The position numbers were made by a program, and so were the translations under genes. The notes beneath the pieces are model-generated. The model made no database searches and was not told where the DNA came from. It was given only the letters and a program-made list of their open reading frames with translations. A stretch of DNA of 64,000 bases. Source: Companilactobacillus tucceti DSM 20183 (GTDB lineage: Bacteria > Bacillota > Bacilli > Lactobacillales > Lactobacillaceae). The stretch's first letter is position 1, and every line of letters starts with the position of its first letter. Shown here in pieces: positions 3,520-62,546 of the stretch. The stretch is from assembly GCF_001434665.1 (NCBI RefSeq), contig NZ_AZDG01000009.1:1-64000 (forward strand), written 5' to 3'.

Positions 3520-4992
3520 ATGAAAAAAAATATTAAATATGCTGGAATCACAGCTGCTACATTGCTAGCTGTTGCTCCAGTAGCTGCACCTGTTGTTAGT
3601 TCAGTTACAACAGTGCAAGCTGATACAACATATGCTACAGCTACAGATGCTGGTAAGTATAATGACCAATTCAAGAAATCTGACACATATACACCAGCAC
3701 AAGCTAAGAATTTCACAGCTGCTGATTATAATGCTGATGGAACAAAAGCCTTGGCATCTTCATTTGGAGCTAGTGAATTCTTGGAAAATGCATTCTTTGG
3801 TCAATTTTTAGATAATGATTCATTGACGACAAAAATCGATAATAACAATGGAAAAATCGTTGCCATTTCAGCAACACAAAATGGTAGTTCTAATACACCA
3901 TTAAGTTTTTCAGATGCTCAAAGCATTTTGAATAATAAAGATGGTAAGGGTGTTACATTCTCAATCACTCTTAAATATAATACAGATGCATCAAATACCG
4001 CTGACGAAACTATCGTTATCAATTTAACACCTGCTAAAGAAGAAGCTGCTAAAACTGTTAGTGCATTAAATGCTAAATTCACTACACCTTATAAGGTTGC
4101 ATATAACTCAAGTACAACAGATGCTAAGTTGCAAAAATCAACTGATTTATCTTTGACAGATCAAGATGGTAACAACTTGTTGACAGATTCTGCTGAAGTT
4201 ACAAGTTACAAATTAGGTGACTTCTACGGTTCATATGCTTCAGCTTTGAATAATGGTACAACTGTTTCAGTTGGTTCAACTTTCACAACTAAAGATGGTT
4301 CAGCTGCTACATATTATCAACCAATTACAGTTACAGTTGCAGACAATTCATTGCTAGCAACATACTTAACAAGCAACTCAAATAGCTCAACATATACTAT
4401 TAATGGTTCTTCAAAGACAGAAACAGATAATGGTAAAGTTAGTGGTAAGACAATTACTTTTGTACGTACAGTAACAGTTGGTTCAAAAGATGATTCAGCT
4501 TGGACGGTTAAAGATGCTGACGGTATCGTTACTGCTAAATCAGACAAGCAATTCTACACACTACACAACGATAACGACGAACTAGTTTCAAACCGTGCTA
4601 TTTCAAAGAACTCACCATGGAGAACAGATAAGGTTCGTACAAATGCTGCTGGTGAAAAACAATACCGTGTTTCAACACACGAATGGATTCCTGAATCAGA
4701 TGTAACTTTCAACGGTACAGAATCAGGTAATGACTCAGGTTCAAATACTGATCCAGAAGGTGCATTGACTGTTACAAAACTTGACAAGAACAAGATTGTT
4801 AACGTTTCAACATCAGGAATGGTTTACTTCTTGTACAACTCAAAGGGTGTTAAATCAGATACACGTGCCCTTGGTGGTGGTACTGCATGGCAAGTAGATA
4901 AGATTGCTAAAGATGCTGCTGGCAATACTTACTACGGTGTTTCAACAGATGAATTTGTTAAAGCTGGCGAAGGCGTAGTTTTAGCTAACTAA
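3520..4992 (+). CDS. Secreted SLAP-domain protein, probable abundant S-layer-type protein
   Basis: A 490-residue exported protein. The signal peptide is MKKNIKYAGITAATLLAVAP... with probable cleavage after VQA (residue ~35). Residues ~40-335 are a Thr/Ser/Asn/Ala-rich region without recognised domains. Two C-terminal SLAP cell-wall-binding repeats follow (about 345-400 and 425-488), with the signatures YRVSTHEW and YGVSTDEF. The domain attaches S-layer proteins non-covalently to wall polymers. Codon choice is strongly biased (ACA, TTC, AAC, GGT and almost no rare codons), unlike its two downstream paralogues, suggesting very high expression; the near-consensus promoter agrees. There are no adjacent export genes. 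It heads a tandem family of three with similar signal peptides and tails but unrelated middles. Confidence 0.8.
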   Translation: MKKNIKYAGITAATLLAVAPVAAPVVSSVTTVQADTTYATATDAGKYNDQFKKSDTYTPAQAKNFTAADYNADGTKALASSFGASEFLENAFFGQFLDNDSLTTKIDNNNGKIVAISATQNGSSNTPLSFSDAQSILNNKDGKGVTFSITLKYNTDASNTADETIVINLTPAKEEAAKTVSALNAKFTTPYKVAYNSSTTDAKLQKSTDLSLTDQDGNNLLTDSAEVTSYKLGDFYGSYASALNNGTTVSVGSTFTTKDGSAATYYQPITVTVADNSLLATYLTSNSNSSTYTINGSSKTETDNGKVSGKTITFVRTVTVGSKDDSAWTVKDADGIVTAKSDKQFYTLHNDNDELVSNRAISKNSPWRTDKVRTNAAGEKQYRVSTHEWIPESDVTFNGTESGNDSGSNTDPEGALTVTKLDKNKIVNVSTSGMVYFLYNSKGVKSDTRALGGGTAWQVDKIAKDAAGNTYYGVSTDEFVKAGEGVVLAN

Positions 4993-5003
4993 TTTCAACT
5001 TTA

Positions 5004-5037
5004 GAAGATAATCGATATTTGATTATCTTCTTTTTTT
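5004..5037 (+). terminator. Terminator of the S-layer-type gene
   Basis: GAAGATAATC pairs perfectly with GATTATCTTC and is followed by seven T. Confidence 0.85.
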
Positions 5038-5103
5038 ATACCCGAAACAAGTTATAATGAGGTTGTACATACTAATATAATGATTTTTGCAGGGAGAAAA
5101 GTT

Positions 5104-7113
5104 ATGAAGAAAACAATTAAATATGCAGGGATTGCGGCTGCTACTTTATTAGCTATTTCACCAGTGGCAACGCAAGTATTGACAGAATCAGGAACGGTAG
5201 TGAAAGCTGCGACAACAGCAACACCGAGTGATGATGATATAAAAATTATGGATGATTTAAGGGAATCATTTAATGATACTGCTTATAGTGATACGGCTGA
5301 ATTTCCTAATATATTAGGTGATAACCTTGGCTTTGATTCTTCATTTATTATGATGAATGGAAATAATGCAACTCAATTTATAGATAGTAAGTTTTTTAAA
5401 AGCTTGAAAGATACGAAAACGATTCAAATGAGTGACAACACTCTAAGTCCTATTTCAATTTTGAACCAAGTTGTGGATAGCAAAGGAAATGCGTTAAATA
5501 TTTCGGATGACAATGCCCAATCTATTAATTCACCTAATTTTGCTAATGCGTTAGATCTTGTTAAGAATGTTAGTGATAATGGTGGAACTCTAAAACTTAG
5601 GGCCACAATTATGTACAATAATAAAGCATATGGTGATCCTATTGATTACTCGTTGACTAATAGTGATATGATTTCTACTTCATCAGAAGACGCAGAAAGT
5701 GTTGCTAATACTTTTCAGCAAAATTTAAAAAGCAATGTTGCTCTAAACGATCGTGATTACCAAAATAATGGAAGTAATTTGTTATCTTTAGATATGGGAC
5801 CTTCAAATGCCTACAATTTAGGATTTTACTATCCAGGTCAAAAAGTATTTTATAGTCAAAATATGGATGAACTATTTAAAACATCTGTAATAAGTAAGGC
5901 TTTATCGGATATTTCTACATCTGTTCAAGATGCTTTAAAAAAAGAACATATAAATGTTGTTGTAAAAGCTACAAATGCTGATGGAACCCCTGTAACATCT
6001 AAGGCAGGCTTAGATAATATAGGTGACAATAAAGAGTCATTTAAACTAGCTTTCAGTTTCCAATATCCTGATGGAAAAGGTAATATTCAAACAATAGACA
6101 ATAATGCAGAAACTTCTTTCGAACATGCAAAGGTTCCAAGTAGTGTTGATGGAACTTATGATAATAAGCCTATTCATGTAAAGGACGGTTCCAAGGTTAG
6201 TGATGTTGATTTTGGAAGCCTAACTCTAAAAGCTGGAGATGATAGTTATGCTTCTGAGGCAAAAGCCTCTGGCAATTTATATTTGACTGAAGCTGATGCC
6301 TGGAATTCCTTAACTGATAATCCTCCTCAACCAGAAACTATTGATACTTTTGATGCAAGTAAAAAAGCAGAGTATTATCAAGTTGTTAGTGCACCTGTTC
6401 CCGGGGATCTCTCTGATTTTATGGGAAAATGGTTGGATGATAGTAATTGGTCAGATGGAAACTCAGTTAATTACAAATTATTAATTAATGGTCAAGAGAT
6501 TCCCATAAATATGGATAGTAATCAAATGTGGGTTATTCCAGATGCTCCCATTAAAGTTTGGGCTAGTAACAACGCTATTTACTACATCCGTGAAATCAAC
6601 GTAGATAAATCAGACAGTAATTCTAATAACAACAATAATTCAAACAATTCAGGAAACATCCAATCCATTTCTGGTGTAGCAACTACACACAACGACAACG
6701 GTTTCTACTTCTTATATAACGATAATAATGAAAAAGTTGATAATCGTGCGTTAGGTAAGAACTCATCATGGAAAGTTGATGAAGTTAGAACTGTAAATGG
6801 TGTTAAGCAATATCGAGTATCAACACATGAATGGGTAAACGCGTCAGATGTGGATTTTGATGAAAATGGTGAAATTACTGAAGGGATGTCTGTTCAAAAA
6901 TTAGATACTCCAAAACAAATAAACTTAGGGACTAAACACAGTCGTTATGGATTACATAATTCAAAACTCAAATTATCTACAACACGTGCTTTGGCAGGTG
7001 GGACAAGTTGGATAGTTGATAAAGTCGGAACTGATTCTAATGGTGATACTTACTATGGAGTTTCAACCGATGAATTTGTTAAAGCCGGCGATGGTGTAAC
7101 ACTCGTTAAATAG
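5104..7113 (+). CDS. Secreted SLAP-domain surface protein, paralogue 2
   Basis: A 669-residue exported protein. The ATG at 5104 is chosen: it begins the signal peptide MKKTIKYAGIAAATLLAISP and follows AGGGAG by 7 bases; the frame is open further upstream. Signal cleavage is likely near VVKA-ATT (about residue 34). The middle (about 40-490) is Asn/Asp/Ser-rich with no recognised fold. An Asn-rich linker (SNSNNNNNSNNSGN) leads into two SLAP repeats (about 520-580 and 605-667) with YRVSTHEW and YGVSTDEF. The N-terminus and SLAP repeats closely match the preceding gene, whereas the middle does not, consistent with tandem duplication followed by divergence. Codon use is less optimised, so lower expression is expected. 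Probably a wall-associated protein of unknown ligand. Confidence 0.75.
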   Translation: MKKTIKYAGIAAATLLAISPVATQVLTESGTVVKAATTATPSDDDIKIMDDLRESFNDTAYSDTAEFPNILGDNLGFDSSFIMMNGNNATQFIDSKFFKSLKDTKTIQMSDNTLSPISILNQVVDSKGNALNISDDNAQSINSPNFANALDLVKNVSDNGGTLKLRATIMYNNKAYGDPIDYSLTNSDMISTSSEDAESVANTFQQNLKSNVALNDRDYQNNGSNLLSLDMGPSNAYNLGFYYPGQKVFYSQNMDELFKTSVISKALSDISTSVQDALKKEHINVVVKATNADGTPVTSKAGLDNIGDNKESFKLAFSFQYPDGKGNIQTIDNNAETSFEHAKVPSSVDGTYDNKPIHVKDGSKVSDVDFGSLTLKAGDDSYASEAKASGNLYLTEADAWNSLTDNPPQPETIDTFDASKKAEYYQVVSAPVPGDLSDFMGKWLDDSNWSDGNSVNYKLLINGQEIPINMDSNQMWVIPDAPIKVWASNNAIYYIREINVDKSDSNSNNNNNSNNSGNIQSISGVATTHNDNGFYFLYNDNNEKVDNRALGKNSSWKVDEVRTVNGVKQYRVSTHEWVNASDVDFDENGEITEGMSVQKLDTPKQINLGTKHSRYGLHNSKLKLSTTRALAGGTSWIVDKVGTDSNGDTYYGVSTDEFVKAGDGVTLVK

Positions 7114-7115
7114 TA

Positions 7116-7146
7116 AAAGATTTGCCTATTAGGCAAATCTTTTTTT
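7116..7146 (+). terminator. Terminator after SLAP paralogue 2
   Basis: AAAGATTTGCC pairs with GGCAAATCTTT around TATTA and is followed by a T run. Confidence 0.85.
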
Positions 7147-7204
7147 ATTAGAGTTATACTAAAAAGTGTATTCATGTAGGTATAAAAAAAGAGGGTATTT
7201 AAAC

Positions 7205-8305
7205 ATGAAAAAATCAATTAAATATGCAGGGATAGCTTCAGCATTGATGATTACAGTTTCACCAATCACTGTGCCAATGATTCATATTGTTAAAGCTGAA
7301 AGCGTTGCTACTGATCCAGCTACAGCTAAGGAAATAAATATTAAAGTAGGGACTACGGATTATATCGATCCGGGGACTCCGATACTAGGAGTGGTCAATA
7401 GTAGTAATGAAGTGGTAAAGGTAAATTATTCTATCACTGATGAAAATGATAATTCGTTAGGTTCCTTTACCCGTGAAGAATATGATTCTGATTTATTTAC
7501 TAGTGAAGAAGACGCTAAAAATCTTACAAATCCAGTAGATTTTGGTGATTACGATGGGGAATTTAAAGAAGGAGATATTTATTATCAAAGAGTTGGCCTC
7601 CTCTTTGGGTCATCTAGTCCTATTAATACGGCTTTATTAAAATGGAATCCACAAGATACTAAGCTAACCTTGAATGGTACGATATTGAGTGATTTTAGTA
7701 AAGCCAAATCTGTTGATAGTTTCATTTCGTTTTCTAATGAAGGATTAAATTATGTCCGTAAATTAGTAGTAGGTACAAAACCATCAACAAATCCCGGAGG
7801 CAACACGGGTACTAACACCGGAACAAATACAAATAATAACAGACCAGTGGTAGTTGCTAAAAAGGGAATAGTAACAACACATATTGATAAGAGTAGTTAC
7901 GATTTATATAATGAAGACAATAAAAAAGTTGATAATCGTGCTTTATTAGCCAACTCATCGTGGAAGATGGACGGCGAAAGAACTGTTGATGGTATTAAAC
8001 AATATCGAGTATCAACACACGAATGGGTCAATGCTTCTGATGTTGATTTCATTGAAGACGGAAAAGTGACTGAGGGCATGACAGTTACTAAATTGGATAA
8101 ACCTAAAGCAATTCTTTTAGCAACAACACATAATACTTATAGCTTAAGAAATTCTAACAATGAAGTACTAACTAACAGAGCCTTGTCTGGTGGAACAAGT
8201 TGGATGGTAGACAAAATTGGAACTGATATGCATGGTGGAGTTTACTATGGGGTTTCAAATGACGAGTTTGTGAAAGCACAAGACGGAGTAGACGCAAGTC
8301 TATAG
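7205..8305 (+). CDS. Secreted SLAP-domain surface protein, paralogue 3
   Basis: A 366-residue exported protein. The ATG at 7205 begins the signal peptide MKKSIKYAGIASALMITVSP, preceded by AGAGGG; an earlier in-frame GTG at 7166 lacks a ribosome binding site. Cleavage is likely after VKA (about residue 31). The unique region (35-200) is short and acidic. A Gly/Thr/Asn linker (around NPGGNTGTNTGTNTNNN) leads to two SLAP repeats (about 225-285 and 305-365) with YRVSTHEW and YGVSNDEF. It completes the tandem trio with the two upstream genes. The wall-binding role is from the family; the function of the exposed region is unknown. Confidence 0.75.
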   Translation: MKKSIKYAGIASALMITVSPITVPMIHIVKAESVATDPATAKEINIKVGTTDYIDPGTPILGVVNSSNEVVKVNYSITDENDNSLGSFTREEYDSDLFTSEEDAKNLTNPVDFGDYDGEFKEGDIYYQRVGLLFGSSSPINTALLKWNPQDTKLTLNGTILSDFSKAKSVDSFISFSNEGLNYVRKLVVGTKPSTNPGGNTGTNTGTNTNNNRPVVVAKKGIVTTHIDKSSYDLYNEDNKKVDNRALLANSSWKMDGERTVDGIKQYRVSTHEWVNASDVDFIEDGKVTEGMTVTKLDKPKAILLATTHNTYSLRNSNNEVLTNRALSGGTSWMVDKIGTDMHGGVYYGVSNDEFVKAQDGVDASL

Positions 8306-8340
8306 TGTTGTTATTTAAGATAGAGATAAACTTAGCCGGA

Positions 8341-8499
8341 GGAAGCAAAAATTTAGGCAGCTGTGAATGTGGCGTTAGCACTTTAGTGCTTACACCACAG
8401 GACGAATTTTGAAATTCGCGTACTTTGCGAAGTTCAAAATCGAGATTGGAGTCCGTGACTCCAATCGGTGGTCCCACAGCAGCCTAGATTTTTGCTTCC
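8341..8499. repeat. Cloverleaf structured element, family 2 copy A
   Basis: Arms 8341-8365 and 8475-8499 pair over 25 positions with two mismatches. Inside are three hairpins: 8368-8399 (TGTGGCGTTAGCAC with GTGCTTACACCACA, three mismatches), 8403-8442, and 8444-8466 (GATTGGAGTC / GACTCCAATC, perfect). It lies about 35 bp after the stop codon of SLAP paralogue 3. A second copy with changed but still paired stems lies reversed at 61887-62064. It has no CCA end or anticodon loop and is not a tRNA. Reading frames across it are artefacts of the inverted repeats. Whether it acts as RNA, terminator or DNA element is unknown. Confidence 0.7.
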
Positions 8500-8534
8500 G
8501 TAGGCGGCAATATATAAAATATTTAAATAAATAG

Positions 8535-8564
8535 CAGGTTCATACAAGTGAGCCTGTTTTTTTT
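8535..8564 (+). terminator. Intrinsic terminator
   Basis: CAGGTTCA pairs with TGAGCCTG (one G-T pair) and is followed by eight T. It would end transcripts crossing the cloverleaf element. Confidence 0.75.
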
Positions 8565-8611: not shown

Positions 8612-8854
8612 ATGCTAGAAAACGTAAACGGTATTGTTAAGGTAAACCAAGATGACCGCTACGTGGTCTTCCTATTCGATACATATGAAATGGATCGTAA
8701 AATGTTACAAGATAAGTTTGTCAAAGGACAAACAGCATGGTATACAGATGCCCGCGGAATCGGTGATGATGGCAAGGCCTTCTATCGTATTGCTAAAGAT
8801 GGCGAATGGATAGAAGCGGATTATGTTGACTATATCGATCGTAATGAAGAATAA
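8612..8854 (+). CDS. Stand-alone SLAP-like domain protein without signal peptide
   Basis: An 80-residue protein that looks like a single SLAP-type module: VNGIVKVNQDDRYVVFLFDT, then GQTAWYTDARGI and AFYRIAKDGEWIEADYVDY, matching the order of the SLAP repeats next door (turn, 'Ra..G..W..D', 'YRvs..eWv.a.dv'). It has no signal peptide or membrane segment, so it either stays in the cytosol or leaves by another route. GGTGG lies 8-12 bases before the ATG. It sits between the tandem SLAP genes and the SLAP-bearing glucosaminidase. It is followed by its own terminator, so it is probably expressed as a single gene. Function unknown. Confidence 0.7.
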   Translation: MLENVNGIVKVNQDDRYVVFLFDTYEMDRKMLQDKFVKGQTAWYTDARGIGDDGKAFYRIAKDGEWIEADYVDYIDRNEE

Positions 8855-9109: not shown

Positions 9110-10912
9110 ATGAACAAAAAATGGGTAGCATCAACTGCGCTAGCTAGTGTTCTGGCTGCAGTTGGTATTTCATCAAATACGTCCCACGTAAGAGCGGCCG
9201 TTTCAGCTGATGATAAAAGCAATGATAATGATGCAGCAGAAAAAATAGGTTCAAATGGCAAGGACAATAGTGTAGCTAGTGTTATGGATGAGCAAGGAGC
9301 ACCAGTTTCCGACTCGACTGATACTCCAGCTGAAGGGTCAGATGCGTCTGACGTTAAAGCAGCTAAAAGTAGTTTGTTAAGGGCACAAACTGCGGCTTTG
9401 ACACAAGCTACTACTACTGCCGGTGCAACTGTTGCACAACAACAGTCATTTTTGGCAATGGCTGTTCCGATGGCTCAAAAAGTTTCAGCAAAATATGGTG
9501 TTTATACATCAATTATGTTAGCTCAAGCTATCCTCGAAAGTGGCTGGGGAGTATCTGACCTAGCTACTGAAGGAAATAATTTATTTGGTATCAAAGGTGA
9601 TTACAATGGTGCCTATATTACGATAAAAACTGCAGAATGGGATGCTTCCCAAGGTTGGTATTATATTTATGCTAATTTCTGTAAGTATCCTAGTTACTAT
9701 GAATCATTTGCGGACAACGGTAATAAGCTTCGTAATGGTGTTTCATGGGATCATAAATATTACAGTGGTGCATGGAAAGAAAATGCTGCGACATATAAAG
9801 ACGCAACTGCGGCTTTACAGGGGAAATATGCCACAGCACCAACTTATGCTGCAACACTGAATAAAATGATTGAAACTTATAATTTAAGCAAATATGATGA
9901 AGATTCTGAAACTAACAGTGGTTCAGAAGACAATAATAGTGGATCTGAAGATAACAACAATAATAATGGCGGTGCAACTCAACAAGTAAATGGTACACAA
10001 ACAAAGATCGATGATGTTGCGACTGTAACTAAGAAAGGTGCCGCACCACTTTATACTGATGCCTATCCTGACCAACAAGTAAGCACTCGTGCTTTAGGTG
10101 AAGGAACTCCTTGGAGAGTGATTTCTAAAGTTGTTACTCCAGAAGGTGAAACTTACTACCAAGTTTCAACACATGAGTTTGTTAAAGCTTCAGATGTTAA
10201 ATTGAAGTCAGACGAAACTACAGCAACTCAACCTCCAGTTTCTATCAGTGATACTGCAACTATTTCTAATACAAATGGTGCCAAGGTCTATTCGTCAGGC
10301 AACTCTAATTCAGTAACTGATCGTACTTTGCCTTACAAATCCTCATGGGTCACAACAGCCTATGTTCTTGGTGATGATGGAGCAAAGTATTATTTAGTAG
10401 GAACTGATTCTTATGTTAAAGACTCAGATATTCAACTAGCTTCAGAAACTAATACTGATGATTCAGATCAAGATGTCGTGATCGATTATCCTGATGTGGT
10501 TCACGTAATTGCCACACCAAGTGCTAGATTGTATAACTCAAAGCACCAAGTAAGTACAAACAGAGCTTTAGCTGCTAATACTGACTGGAAAGTTGATAAG
10601 AAATCAACTCATACAGATGGCTCGATCTGGTATCGTGTTTCATCTGACGAATGGGTCAGTGCAAATGATGTACAAGCAACAGGCTCAAATTATGTAACAT
10701 CTGTAAATGGTACGGTCAAGATCAATTACATTCCGGGATATGGTGTAAATGTATACAATAGTCCGGCTAAAAATCATAAATTTACAGGTAAACGATTGGC
10801 AGACGGGACAACTTGGAAAGTAAATTCTAAACAGATTGTTGATGGAACTACTTGGTATCAAGTTGTCGGTGGCTGGGTCGATGGAAAATATTGTATTTAT
10901 ACTGCTGTTTAA
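9110..10912 (+). CDS. Secreted GH73 N-acetylglucosaminidase autolysin with C-terminal SLAP repeats
   Basis: A 600-residue peptidoglycan hydrolase. The signal peptide is MNKKWVASTALASVLAAVGI... with cleavage near VRA (about residue 29). A low-complexity acidic spacer (30-105) precedes the GH73 glucosaminidase domain (about 110-260): AQAILESGWG with probable catalytic Glu143, then GNNLFGIKG and the family aromatic pattern FCKYPSYYESF. An Asp/Ser/Asn linker (265-290) is followed by four SLAP modules (about 300-365, 378-445, 460-525, 530-600), the last degenerate. GH73 enzymes cleave the GlcNAc-MurNAc bond and serve in cell separation. SLAP anchoring puts the enzyme in the same wall layer as the tandem surface proteins upstream. 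Its gene has its own terminator. Confidence 0.88.
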   Translation: MNKKWVASTALASVLAAVGISSNTSHVRAAVSADDKSNDNDAAEKIGSNGKDNSVASVMDEQGAPVSDSTDTPAEGSDASDVKAAKSSLLRAQTAALTQATTTAGATVAQQQSFLAMAVPMAQKVSAKYGVYTSIMLAQAILESGWGVSDLATEGNNLFGIKGDYNGAYITIKTAEWDASQGWYYIYANFCKYPSYYESFADNGNKLRNGVSWDHKYYSGAWKENAATYKDATAALQGKYATAPTYAATLNKMIETYNLSKYDEDSETNSGSEDNNSGSEDNNNNNGGATQQVNGTQTKIDDVATVTKKGAAPLYTDAYPDQQVSTRALGEGTPWRVISKVVTPEGETYYQVSTHEFVKASDVKLKSDETTATQPPVSISDTATISNTNGAKVYSSGNSNSVTDRTLPYKSSWVTTAYVLGDDGAKYYLVGTDSYVKDSDIQLASETNTDDSDQDVVIDYPDVVHVIATPSARLYNSKHQVSTNRALAANTDWKVDKKSTHTDGSIWYRVSSDEWVSANDVQATGSNYVTSVNGTVKINYIPGYGVNVYNSPAKNHKFTGKRLADGTTWKVNSKQIVDGTTWYQVVGGWVDGKYCIYTAV

Positions 10913-31442: not shown

Positions 31443-31560
31443 GTGCAATGATACACAGCTTTTTCCGCTTAAAGCAAAAGATCCTATCAATCTAAAATCG
31501 GATTGATAGGATCTTTTACCTTAATGCTCGAAAGCTGAACGTGTATCATTGCACTCTTTT
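31443..31560 (-). repeat. Structured 3'-region repeat, family 1 copy R1
   Basis: Outer arms GTGCAATGATACAC (31443-31456) and GTGTATCATTGCAC (31541-31554) pair perfectly over 14 bp. An inner AGCTTT/AAAGCT helix and a perfect 17-bp central hairpin (31476-31517) follow. On the minus strand the element starts 2 bases after the stop codon of lectin gene 2. The conserved loops read GCATTAAGG and TTAAGCGGAAAA. Confidence 0.8.
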
Positions 31561-41753: not shown

Positions 41754-41882
41754 GTGGGACAAAACATGTTCAACTTTCGAGCATTAAGGCAAATGACTCC
41801 AGTAATCCGATTTTGGATTACTGGAGTCATTTGTATTAAGCGGAAAAAGTTATGTTTTGTTCCACGTTTATGCTGCATGTTT
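41754..41882 (+). repeat. Structured 3'-region repeat, family 1 copy R2
   Basis: Outer arms GTGGGACAAAACAT (41754-41767) and ATGTTTTGTTCCAC (41852-41865) pair with one G-T. The inner helix is AACTTT/AAAGTT, where copies R1 and R3 have AGCTTT/AAAGCT, a compensated change. The central stem is 18 bp (41791-41832). The tail GTTTATGCTGCATGTTTAAG matches the tail of copy R4. It starts 4 bases after the adhesin stop codon. Confidence 0.8.
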
Positions 41883-45281: not shown

Positions 45282-45411
45282 GTGCAACTCAGCATGCCCA
45301 GCTTTCGAGCATTAAGGCAAATAAGGACAGTAATCCAACGGATTACTGTCCATATTTGTATTAAGCGGAAAAAGCTATGCTGAGTTGCACGTTTAAGTAG
45401 CAAGTTTGAGG
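45282..45411 (+). repeat. Structured 3'-region repeat, family 1 copy R3
   Basis: GTGCAACTCAGCAT (45282-45295) pairs perfectly with ATGCTGAGTTGCAC (45377-45390). The inner helix is AGCTTT/AAAGCT and the central hairpin GGACAGTAATCC/GGATTACTGTCC has the loop AAC. It starts within 3 bases of the mntH stop codon. Confidence 0.8.
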
Positions 45412-54084: not shown

Positions 54085-54199
54085 GCGTCAAAAAACACAG
54101 CCTTTTCCGCTTAAAACAAACACCCTCATCAATCCATTCGGATTGATGAGGGTGTTTGCCTTAATGCTCGAAGGCTGAGCGTGTTTTTTGACGCTCTCT
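54085..54199 (-). repeat. Structured 3'-region repeat, family 1 copy R4
   Basis: GCGTCAAAAAACAC (54085-54098) pairs perfectly with GTGTTTTTTGACGC (54181-54194). The inner helix AGCCTT/AAGGCT shows a compensated change from AGCTTT/AAAGCT. The central stem is a perfect 18 bp (54118-54157). On the minus strand it starts just after the stop codon of the glycosyltransferase gene. A truncated relative lies at about 54034-54080. Confidence 0.8.
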
Positions 54200-61432: not shown

Positions 61433-61861
61433 ATGAAAAATATTGGATATTTGGCCCAAGATATATCGATCTTGCATCGAAAATACTATAAAGATACAAA
61501 AGAACAATTTGATAAATTACAGTTAAATCCAACAGCCGCATGTATTTTATTGTCGATTGGTGACTATAAAGAAGTCAGTCAAAATCAAGTCGCAAGATTG
61601 CTTGTGGTTGATAAAGGATTAGCTACTAGAGAGATCAATAAGATGAAAAAATTGAATTACTTGAGTAAAGTTGATGGAGCAGGTAAAACTAAAATTCTCA
61701 AATTAACTGATACTGGTAAAAAGGTTGTCAAAAAAGTTCAACAGATAAGAATTGACTGGTGGGAAGATAGATTTGCCGAAACTGGTATTAAAGCAGATAG
61801 TCCCTTAGTTGAAGCAATTGAAAGTGTTGTTGACGGTATTGTGGAACCGGTTGAAGAATAG
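61433..61861 (+). CDS. MarR-family regulator of the acetoin operon
   Basis: A 142-residue winged-helix regulator. The ATG at 61433 follows GGAGA by 8 bases. The DNA-binding part shows KEVSQNQVARLLVVDKGLATREINKMKKLNYLSK (read as two segments, about residues 44-77) with a wing at VDGAGKTKILKLTDTGKKVV, the common MarR layout. It is divergent from alsS-aldC, with a perfect palindrome in the shared gap, so it most likely represses both transcripts. Known als operons in Bacillus use a LysR-type activator, so MarR control is a lactobacillar variant. The inducer is unknown (acid or pyruvate are candidates). Confidence 0.85.
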   Translation: MKNIGYLAQDISILHRKYYKDTKEQFDKLQLNPTAACILLSIGDYKEVSQNQVARLLVVDKGLATREINKMKKLNYLSKVDGAGKTKILKLTDTGKKVVKKVQQIRIDWWEDRFAETGIKADSPLVEAIESVVDGIVEPVEE

Positions 61862-61886
61862 ATTTTATATATTTATATAGTGGTGT

Positions 61887-62064
61887 AACTGGAAATCATG
61901 AATAATTCCACCTGTTGTGTGGACGTCTTCAGCCAAGGTCTGAAGACTCACTTTGAAACTTTGCATAATTCGTAAATTTTCAAAGATGCCAGTGGAGTAA
62001 GGTCGGAAGTTCATCGACCTAACTCCACTTTCACAACTGGTTCCATTATTCATGATTTTCAGTT
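61887..62064. repeat. Cloverleaf structured element, family 2 copy B (reversed)
   Basis: Arms of 33 bases (61887-61919 and 62032-62064) pair over most positions. Inside are GTCTTCAG/CTGAAGAC (61925-61947), CTTTGAAA/TTTCAAAG (61951-61985) and AGTGGAGTAAGGTCG/CGACCTAACTCCACT (61991-62029). Its reverse strand aligns with copy A at 8341-8499: shared words TGTGAA-GTGG-GTTAG, TTAC-CCAC-GG and AG-CC-TG occur in the same places, while stems differ with pairing kept. It fills the gap between convergent marR and def-like genes. No gene was seen here. Confidence 0.7.
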
Positions 62065-62106: not shown

Positions 62107-62137
62107 AAAAAGGCCTGACATTTTTGTCAGACCTTTT
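62107..62137. terminator. Terminator of the deformylase-like gene
   Basis: AAAGG-C-CTGAC pairs with GTCAG-A-CCTTT; both strands have suitable T runs. The stop codon of the gene overlaps the hairpin foot. Confidence 0.7.
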
Positions 62138-62546
62138 ATATTAAAATCCCGTCCAGATGATCTATTTCATGTTGGATAATTTCAGCTACAAAATCACTGA
62201 AATCTTGTTTTTGTGGTTTAAATGAAGCATCTGAATAAGTAACTGTAATGTGTTTGAATCGTTTAGTTTTTCTTTCACCAATTAGCGATAAGCATCCTTC
62301 TTCAGTATCATAAGAATCACTCTTTTTGATAATTACTGGATTTATCATTGGAATGGCCATGTTACCTAATTGAAAGGCAATGATTCGTTTGTTTATACCA
62401 ATCATATTTGCAGCCATTCCTACGCAGTCTTCTTGGTGTGATTTTAGTGTGTCTATTAAATCAGTTATAGCCTGACTATCTTTGGGGGTTGCTGGTGTAG
62501 ATTTTTGTGAAAGTAGAGTTGTATCTTTGTTGATTTGTTTGATCAT
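62136..62546 (-). CDS. Peptide deformylase-like protein (short form)
   Basis: A 136-residue metalloenzyme-like protein. The three deformylase motifs are present: GMAANMIGINKRII (usually GxGLAAPQ), EGCLSLIGE (metal Cys) and QHEIDHLDGIL (metal and catalytic His-Glu-His). Lengths near 136 are common for the second PDF of lactobacilli. The usual 'AAPQ' is AANM, so substrate handling may differ. It would remove formyl from nascent peptides or act as a PDF-like protein of uncertain role. The main def gene is presumably elsewhere. AGGAG lies before the ATG on the minus strand. Confidence 0.88.
   Translation of the reverse strand: MIKQINKDTTLLSQKSTPATPKDSQAITDLIDTLKSHQEDCVGMAANMIGINKRIIAFQLGNMAIPMINPVIIKKSDSYDTEEGCLSLIGERKTKRFKHITVTYSDASFKPQKQDFSDFVAEIIQHEIDHLDGILI

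Follow-up and report, generated by a model that had tools for sequence, protein, structure and literature searches.

The window, a stretch of 64,000 nucleotides from the genome of Companilactobacillus tucceti, contains two copies of a branched hairpin element, copy A and copy B (Table 1). Copy A is preceded by a surface-protein ORF, which ends at 8305, and followed by a small ORF at 8612. The neighbours of copy B are, as read from their translations, a MarR-like ORF with its end at 61861 and, at 62136-62546 on the minus strand, a deformylase-like ORF. A run of ORFs near copy A, at 3520-8305 and 9110-10912, corresponds to secreted proteins with a common repeated C-terminal module (..NRAL..W.VDK....Y.VS..E.V..).

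The element has a length of about 175 bp and comprises a long outer stem, three hairpins and one extra closing helix. The outer arms are 25 nt long in copy A and 33 nt in copy B. The outer stem and three inner hairpins proposed for both copies in the initial annotation were borne out by the complementarity of the arms and by the minimum-free-energy folds, which reached -93.9 kcal/mol for copy A (z -11.8) and -79.7 kcal/mol for copy B (z -10.5); for either copy, 0 of 200 shuffled sequences folded equally well. The term cloverleaf used there is appropriate for the outer stem and the three hairpins, but many copies add a GGAC/GTCC helix that closes hairpins 2 and 3. Copy B had been described as a partner of the same plan. 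It is indeed a second element in the window, but its orientation is opposite: the covariance model (R1) places copy A on the plus strand and copy B on the minus strand, so that their junction words match as reverse complements. Two terminator-like stems were found at copy A, one inside hairpin 3 (minus strand) and a separate one after the element at 8533-8558.

Table 1. Location of copies A and B and of their structural parts in the window (I3 and I6, inverted repeats; R1, covariance model).
Feature	Position	Strand	Evidence
Copy A, whole element	8334..8508	+	R1 covariance-model match, 161 bits, E 7e-43; fold z -11.8
Copy A, ends: left foot AGCCGG, right foot GGCGGC	within 8334..8508	+	
Copy A, outer stem, 5' arm (variable arm + CAGCTGTG)	8341..8365	+	Inverted repeat I6, 92% complementary
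Copy A, outer stem, 3' arm	8475..8499	+	Inverted repeat I6
Copy A, hairpin 1 (GTGGCGTTAG..CTTACACCAC)	8369..8398	+	Fold; covarying pairs 36-65, 38-63, 45-56
Copy A, hairpin 2 (GACGAATTTTGAAATTCGC..GCGAAGTTCAAAATCG)	8401..8442	+	Fold; covarying pairs 74-106 to 84-96
Copy A, hairpin 3 (GATTGGAG TCCGTGA CTCCAATC)	8444..8466	+	Fold; covarying pairs 112-132 to 116-128
Copy B, whole element	61885..62064	-	R1 match, 157.8 bits, E 5.7e-42; fold z -10.5
Copy B, outer stem arm	61887..61919	-	Inverted repeat I3, 85% complementary
Copy B, outer stem arm	62032..62064	-	Inverted repeat I3
Copy B, hairpin 1 (minus-strand GTGGAGTTAGG..CCTTACTCCAC)	61992..62028	-	Fold
Copy B, hairpin 2	61951..61985	-	Fold
Copy B, hairpin 3 (minus-strand loop AGACCTTGGCT)	61925..61947	-	Fold; anchor motif found (L009)

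A dispersed family with conserved pairing

The model R1 was built from 25 copies found by DNA searches. A search of the 2.17-Mb C. tucceti genome (G000) with this model revealed 31 distinct copies (46 rows, 15 of which are the same places on the other strand). Matches at E<=1e-3 were obtained in 32 of 36 Companilactobacillus genomes, in 14 of them at E below 1e-35, and the copy number within the genus ranged from 0 to hundreds per genome. In four genomes 150 candidates each were scored, and every one of them matched the model. Evenly spaced samples (ten of 20 kb each) contained 26 copies in 120 kb of genome G002 and 11 copies in 80 kb of genome G029, which extrapolates to about 590 and about 380 copies per genome, respectively. 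Among the matches listed for the core pattern in GTDB, 79 of 80 loci came from nine Companilactobacillus species; the remaining one, from a MAG, gave no model match. In an order-wide sample at least 11 of 198 genomes, the own genome included, matched at E<=1e-8, in at least 8 of 54 genera; these figures are a lower bound, the best 13 candidates per genome being scored. The elements of other genera keep the plan, with very long variable outer arms, hairpins and a hairpin 3 of the AGAC..GGCT type. Exceptions without hairpin 3 or with another arrangement occur in other genera (L319, L322) and in Companilactobacillus (L278/L285). Plasmids and phages gave no blastn match to copy A, and viral contigs none to the core pattern. 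In agreement with the initial annotation, which recognized no named RNA family, an Rfam search of the window gave 0 matches; Rfam on four copy-bearing loci gave nine sub-threshold matches, none at its gathering score. The open-access literature on Lactobacillus and Companilactobacillus repeats yielded no description of the hairpin family, which is apparently a large, undescribed repeat family of Companilactobacillus and relatives.

The different stem sequences that still pair, noted initially for copies A and B, recur throughout the family. Among 25 copies of the own genome 44 of 55 pairs were changed on both sides, and 96.8% of the cells were paired; shuffles reached 77.7% and slid structures 34-41%. 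With more copies aligned the case became stronger: the covariation score of these 25 copies was 0.570 versus 0.199 in shuffles, 0 of 500 shuffles being as high. For a larger alignment, 219 copies carrying an anchor motif in hairpin 3 were collected by means of this motif. Structure-free mutual information ranked the stem pairs of these copies at the top and revealed, in addition, covariation at 67-138, an extra pair by which hairpins 2 and 3 are closed. These results strongly support the maintenance of the structure through compensatory change. The loop of hairpin 3 across the family is AGACCNNGGCT, with exactly AGACCTTGGCT in 161 of the 219 copies. A conserved A·G mismatch was found in stem 2 (116 of 163 copies), the stem 3 loop was seen both as TT/AA and as TC/GA, and whole hairpins differ between otherwise similar copies. 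At the outer end, a triplet (alignment columns 4-6 and 165-167) is found in two states: GGA opposite GGA, which do not pair, and a flipped form that does, such as TCC opposite GGA, which resembles a local inversion.

Copies often stand as inverted pairs. Neighbours less than 800 bp apart were arranged minus-plus in 43 of 47 cases at pattern-selected loci and in 8 of 8 cases in the own genome; in the evenly spaced samples, 7 of 7 neighbours less than 300 bp apart showed this arrangement. In Companilactobacillus the outer feet of the pairs are GCCGYCTCC..GGAGRCGGC. The partners in a pair are unlike, with a mean identity of 0.668 (range 0.58-0.80; 42 pairs) compared with an all-pairs mean of 0.684. 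In copy-rich species most pairs have unrelated spacers: among 17 pairs of one type combination, 3 of 136 comparisons exceeded the 99% null. This may mean either that single hairpins also move or that spacers are quickly replaced. The gene contexts of 39 pairs were +- in 14, -- in 13, ++ in 6 and -+ in 6 cases. A role as 3' terminator was rejected: terminator-like hairpins are present in some spacers but missing from most, and pairs are found in every gene context. At G000:C6:6984-7408 and at its orthologue in genome G018 an inverted pair is present in both genomes with the hairpin types on swapped sides, by inversion or by independent insertion.

Mobility of the repeat units

In G018, which at about 87% in coding DNA is the nearest relative, the locus orthologous to that of copy B lacks the element. 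This locus holds another hairpin repeat, one of a second palindromic family that is also present in the window (see below). At C49:59008-59473 the first (B-type) copy is common to the own genome and G018, the partner is missing in G018, and the shared copy shows compensatory changes in G018 (outer arm CA/TG to TG/CA). A clean filled/empty pair was not obtained, since the empty orthologues differ by more than the element; at the orthologues of the deformylase locus presence and absence were seen, but no clean junction.

Whole units were found repeated at unrelated loci. In genome G159 a 248-bp unit is 99.2% identical at two unrelated loci with sharp edges. In G199 the whole pair with its spacer (667 columns, 91.9%) is present at two unrelated loci, again with sharp edges, and the first cloverleaf is deleted at a third locus. 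In G018 a whole pair (631 columns, 87.8%) occupies two unrelated loci; its right end lies at GCGGCA, and on the left side homology continues into a common terminator-like hairpin, so that the left edge is a tentative one. By eye, no target duplication was evident at the edges of the repeated units and pairs. The comparison of these genomes indicates that the family is mobile, and the moving unit may be a single hairpin in some lineages and a pair in others.

In G159 the 248-bp unit has terminal inverted repeats GGAGCTGGGAATAA / TTATTTCCCAGTCCC. A MITE family of about 130 bp in the same genome (L333-L342) has ends GGGGCTGGGAAATAA..TTTTTTCCCAKCCCC that are closely similar to those of the 248-bp unit, and the hairpin there may therefore be a passenger. 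The inner hairpin of this MITE occurs with ACACCGTCAA and with ACACCTTCAA, the other arm being changed to match. A composite transposon was considered at C34:24252/27843 and rejected, the intervening 3.4 kb looking like host genes (LysR-like, oxidoreductase-like and flavodoxin-like ORFs, names read from the translations).

The search for a mover gave no candidate gene. Y1/RAYT (PF01797) had no match in the own genome or in the copy-rich genomes G002 and G006. Across the genus PF01797 was present in 7 of 14 copy-rich and 11 of 22 other genomes; its presence is not associated with copy number, and RAYT/Y1 was rejected as the mover. No autonomous parent with the same ends was found by one pattern search in one genome and by listing the ORFs between widely spaced copies.

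Mismatch intermediates and changes in the arms

If the element were selected as a transcript, G·U pairs, reached in one step, would be expected in large excess over A·C pairs; about equal numbers of G·T and A·C would place the constraint mainly at the DNA level. Over 25 pair columns, picked for high pairing, the 219 copies contained 5081 Watson-Crick pairs, 72 G·T, 71 A·C and 129 other combinations. The same kind of count in 38 tRNAs of the own genome gave 58 G·T versus 0 A·C, a control that is favoured because ARAGORN itself accepts G·U. A stricter count of isolated mismatches yielded 32 G·T versus 13 A·C in the outer stem, 3 versus 11 in stem 2 and 22 versus 12 in stem 3, summing to a mild G·T excess (57 versus 36). 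An early tally with unrestricted arms was dropped for the outer stem (142 versus 96) owing to misaligned arm tails; it gave 163 versus 34 for stem 2 and 18 versus 6 for stem 3. In stem 2, 145 of the G·T were in one orientation and may reflect a fixed loop-closing position. As judged from this comparison, the constraint on the element appears to act mainly at the DNA level.

Selection on RNA, which the initial annotation had put forward, was accordingly not borne out by the equal G·T and A·C counts, by the free orientation of the element to genes and by its inverted pairs. A structured RNA read from the plus strand of the element, either a small RNA or a cis element, would account for the very strong covariation, the low folding energy and the mild G·T excess of the strict counts. 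We nevertheless consider it improbable, since there is no overall G·U preference, the inverted pairs present both orientations, the position relative to genes varies and promoter-like sites at copy A are no more numerous than in shuffles. The cruciform or DNA hairpin offered as the other option is a better fit than RNA, but each element belongs to a mobile family with dispersed copies and is not half of an RNA-gene pair. A functional RNA is commonly regarded as proven when covariation is strong. In the hairpin family, covariation is near-perfect at hundreds of loci and G·T and A·C intermediates are equally frequent, an observation that points to DNA. The family provides a large natural data set to separate RNA selection from template-switch or DNA-hairpin processes, and the G·T/A·C test could be used in RNA-discovery pipelines.

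The changes between nearest neighbours were compared at different levels of identity. At an identity of >=0.90, 20 one-sided changes were counted versus 6 two-sided Watson-Crick changes, whereas two-sided changes prevailed at 0.85-0.90 (66 versus 40) and at 0.80-0.85 (156 versus 66). The excess of one-sided changes in the closest copies indicated that compensation is at least partly stepwise. Neighbouring double changes exceeded the expectation in stem 2 (13 versus 7.5, p 0.007) and in the outer stem (29 versus 20.7, p 0.009); their clustering was not significant in stem 3 (p 0.116). These values refer to a within-comparison null with a shorter stem 2 pair list, which replaced a first null without divergence control. 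The clustered double changes match the pattern described for template switching between inverted-repeat arms, although the exchange of whole hairpins among copies would produce clusters as well. Template switching is described as homogenising the arms of inverted repeats, inverting loops and yielding multibase compensatory changes (PMC8604942, PMC8794818).

A proposed folded mobile DNA repeat and its alternatives

Taken together, the element is probably a non-autonomous, REPIN/MITE-like mobile DNA repeat that acts as a branched folded DNA of about 175 nt, its arms being kept complementary by copying at the DNA level and by selection. Once a strand is single, most simply in replication, a branched hairpin would form from the element alone or from the inverted pair including its spacer. 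A putative trans-acting enzyme would then cut and paste the unit, which it would recognize by the mismatches that are conserved, by the loop AGACCNNGGCT and by the conserved feet AATAAACTAGYCGG / GRCGGCAT. A mutation in one arm could be copied to the other at the DNA level by template switching or hairpin repair, and versions that no longer pair would stop moving; by both routes the arms would stay complementary. The partners of a pair may differ (58-80% identical) because near-identical inverted copies in close proximity would form an unstable long palindrome.

Alternatively, an ordinary transposase could move the unit as a duplex by its outer ends, as a passive MITE, while the palindromes go unrecognized and are made and kept by template switching only. 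Such arm changes are among those reported for template switching (PMC8604942, PMC8794818), the double changes cluster, the stem 3 loop occurs in both TT/AA and TC/GA form, and the terminal inverted repeats of the G159 unit are common to another MITE. We regard this explanation as rather unlikely: the conserved junctions, together with the A·G mismatch and the loop AGACCTTGGCT retained at the frequencies given above, imply that the fold is read, as does a plan that persists from genus to genus with new sequences in its arms. A site of host DNA architecture or protein binding that spreads among copies by recombination and not by transposition would be in line with hundreds of intergenic copies and with whole-hairpin differences between similar copies, as mosaic exchange would give. 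This is very improbable given a copy number from 0 to hundreds within one genus and sharp-edged, near-identical whole units at unrelated loci.

Among known systems, the repeats come close to REPINs and BIMEs, inverted REP doublets mobilized by RAYT. These doublets are described as extragenic palindromes of high copy number and are inferred to function in the form of folded single strands (PMC3116915); REPs are units of 20-40 bp (PMC3733652). The lactobacillar repeats resemble REPINs/BIMEs in their high copy number, extragenic position, palindromic inverted doublets with a short spacer and a copy number that varies between species. They differ in that the unit is a branched hairpin of about 175 nt with four to five helices instead of a short single palindrome, the pair partners are unlike, the Y1/RAYT gene is missing from the own genome, G002 and G006, and the foot is CTAG-like and may differ from GTAG. 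With MITEs they share short, non-coding, dispersed and sharp-edged units, including the G159 relative with terminal inverted repeats; in contrast, target duplication and a parent transposase were not found in the comparisons and searches given above, and the internal multi-hairpin fold is kept by compensation. In Firmicutes, bcr1 and other structured repeats of Bacillus cereus are comparable by description, bcr1 being a mobile repeat of about 155 bp with conserved folding.

The folded mobile repeat proposed here could tentatively be extended, at a low probability, to a Lactobacillales-wide class of mobile DNA with a multi-branched single-strand recognition unit, unlike inverted pairs, a non-Y1/RAYT enzyme and hypervariable arms renewed by arm copying. 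Searches can be aimed at the enzyme by which structured repeats have spread to several hundred copies in lactobacilli lacking RAYT.

Two further hairpin repeats were observed in the window. The second palindromic family is represented at 31456-31537 and 54098-54177 (I1/I2), with feet CAGCYTTTTCCGCTTAAA / CCTTAATGCTCGAARGCTG and arms that are variable but complementary. The third repeat, at 41784-41839 and 45312-45364 (I7/I8), has the form TTAAGGCAAATNNNNNCAGTAATCC / GGATTACTG..ATTTGTATTAA with a variable middle.
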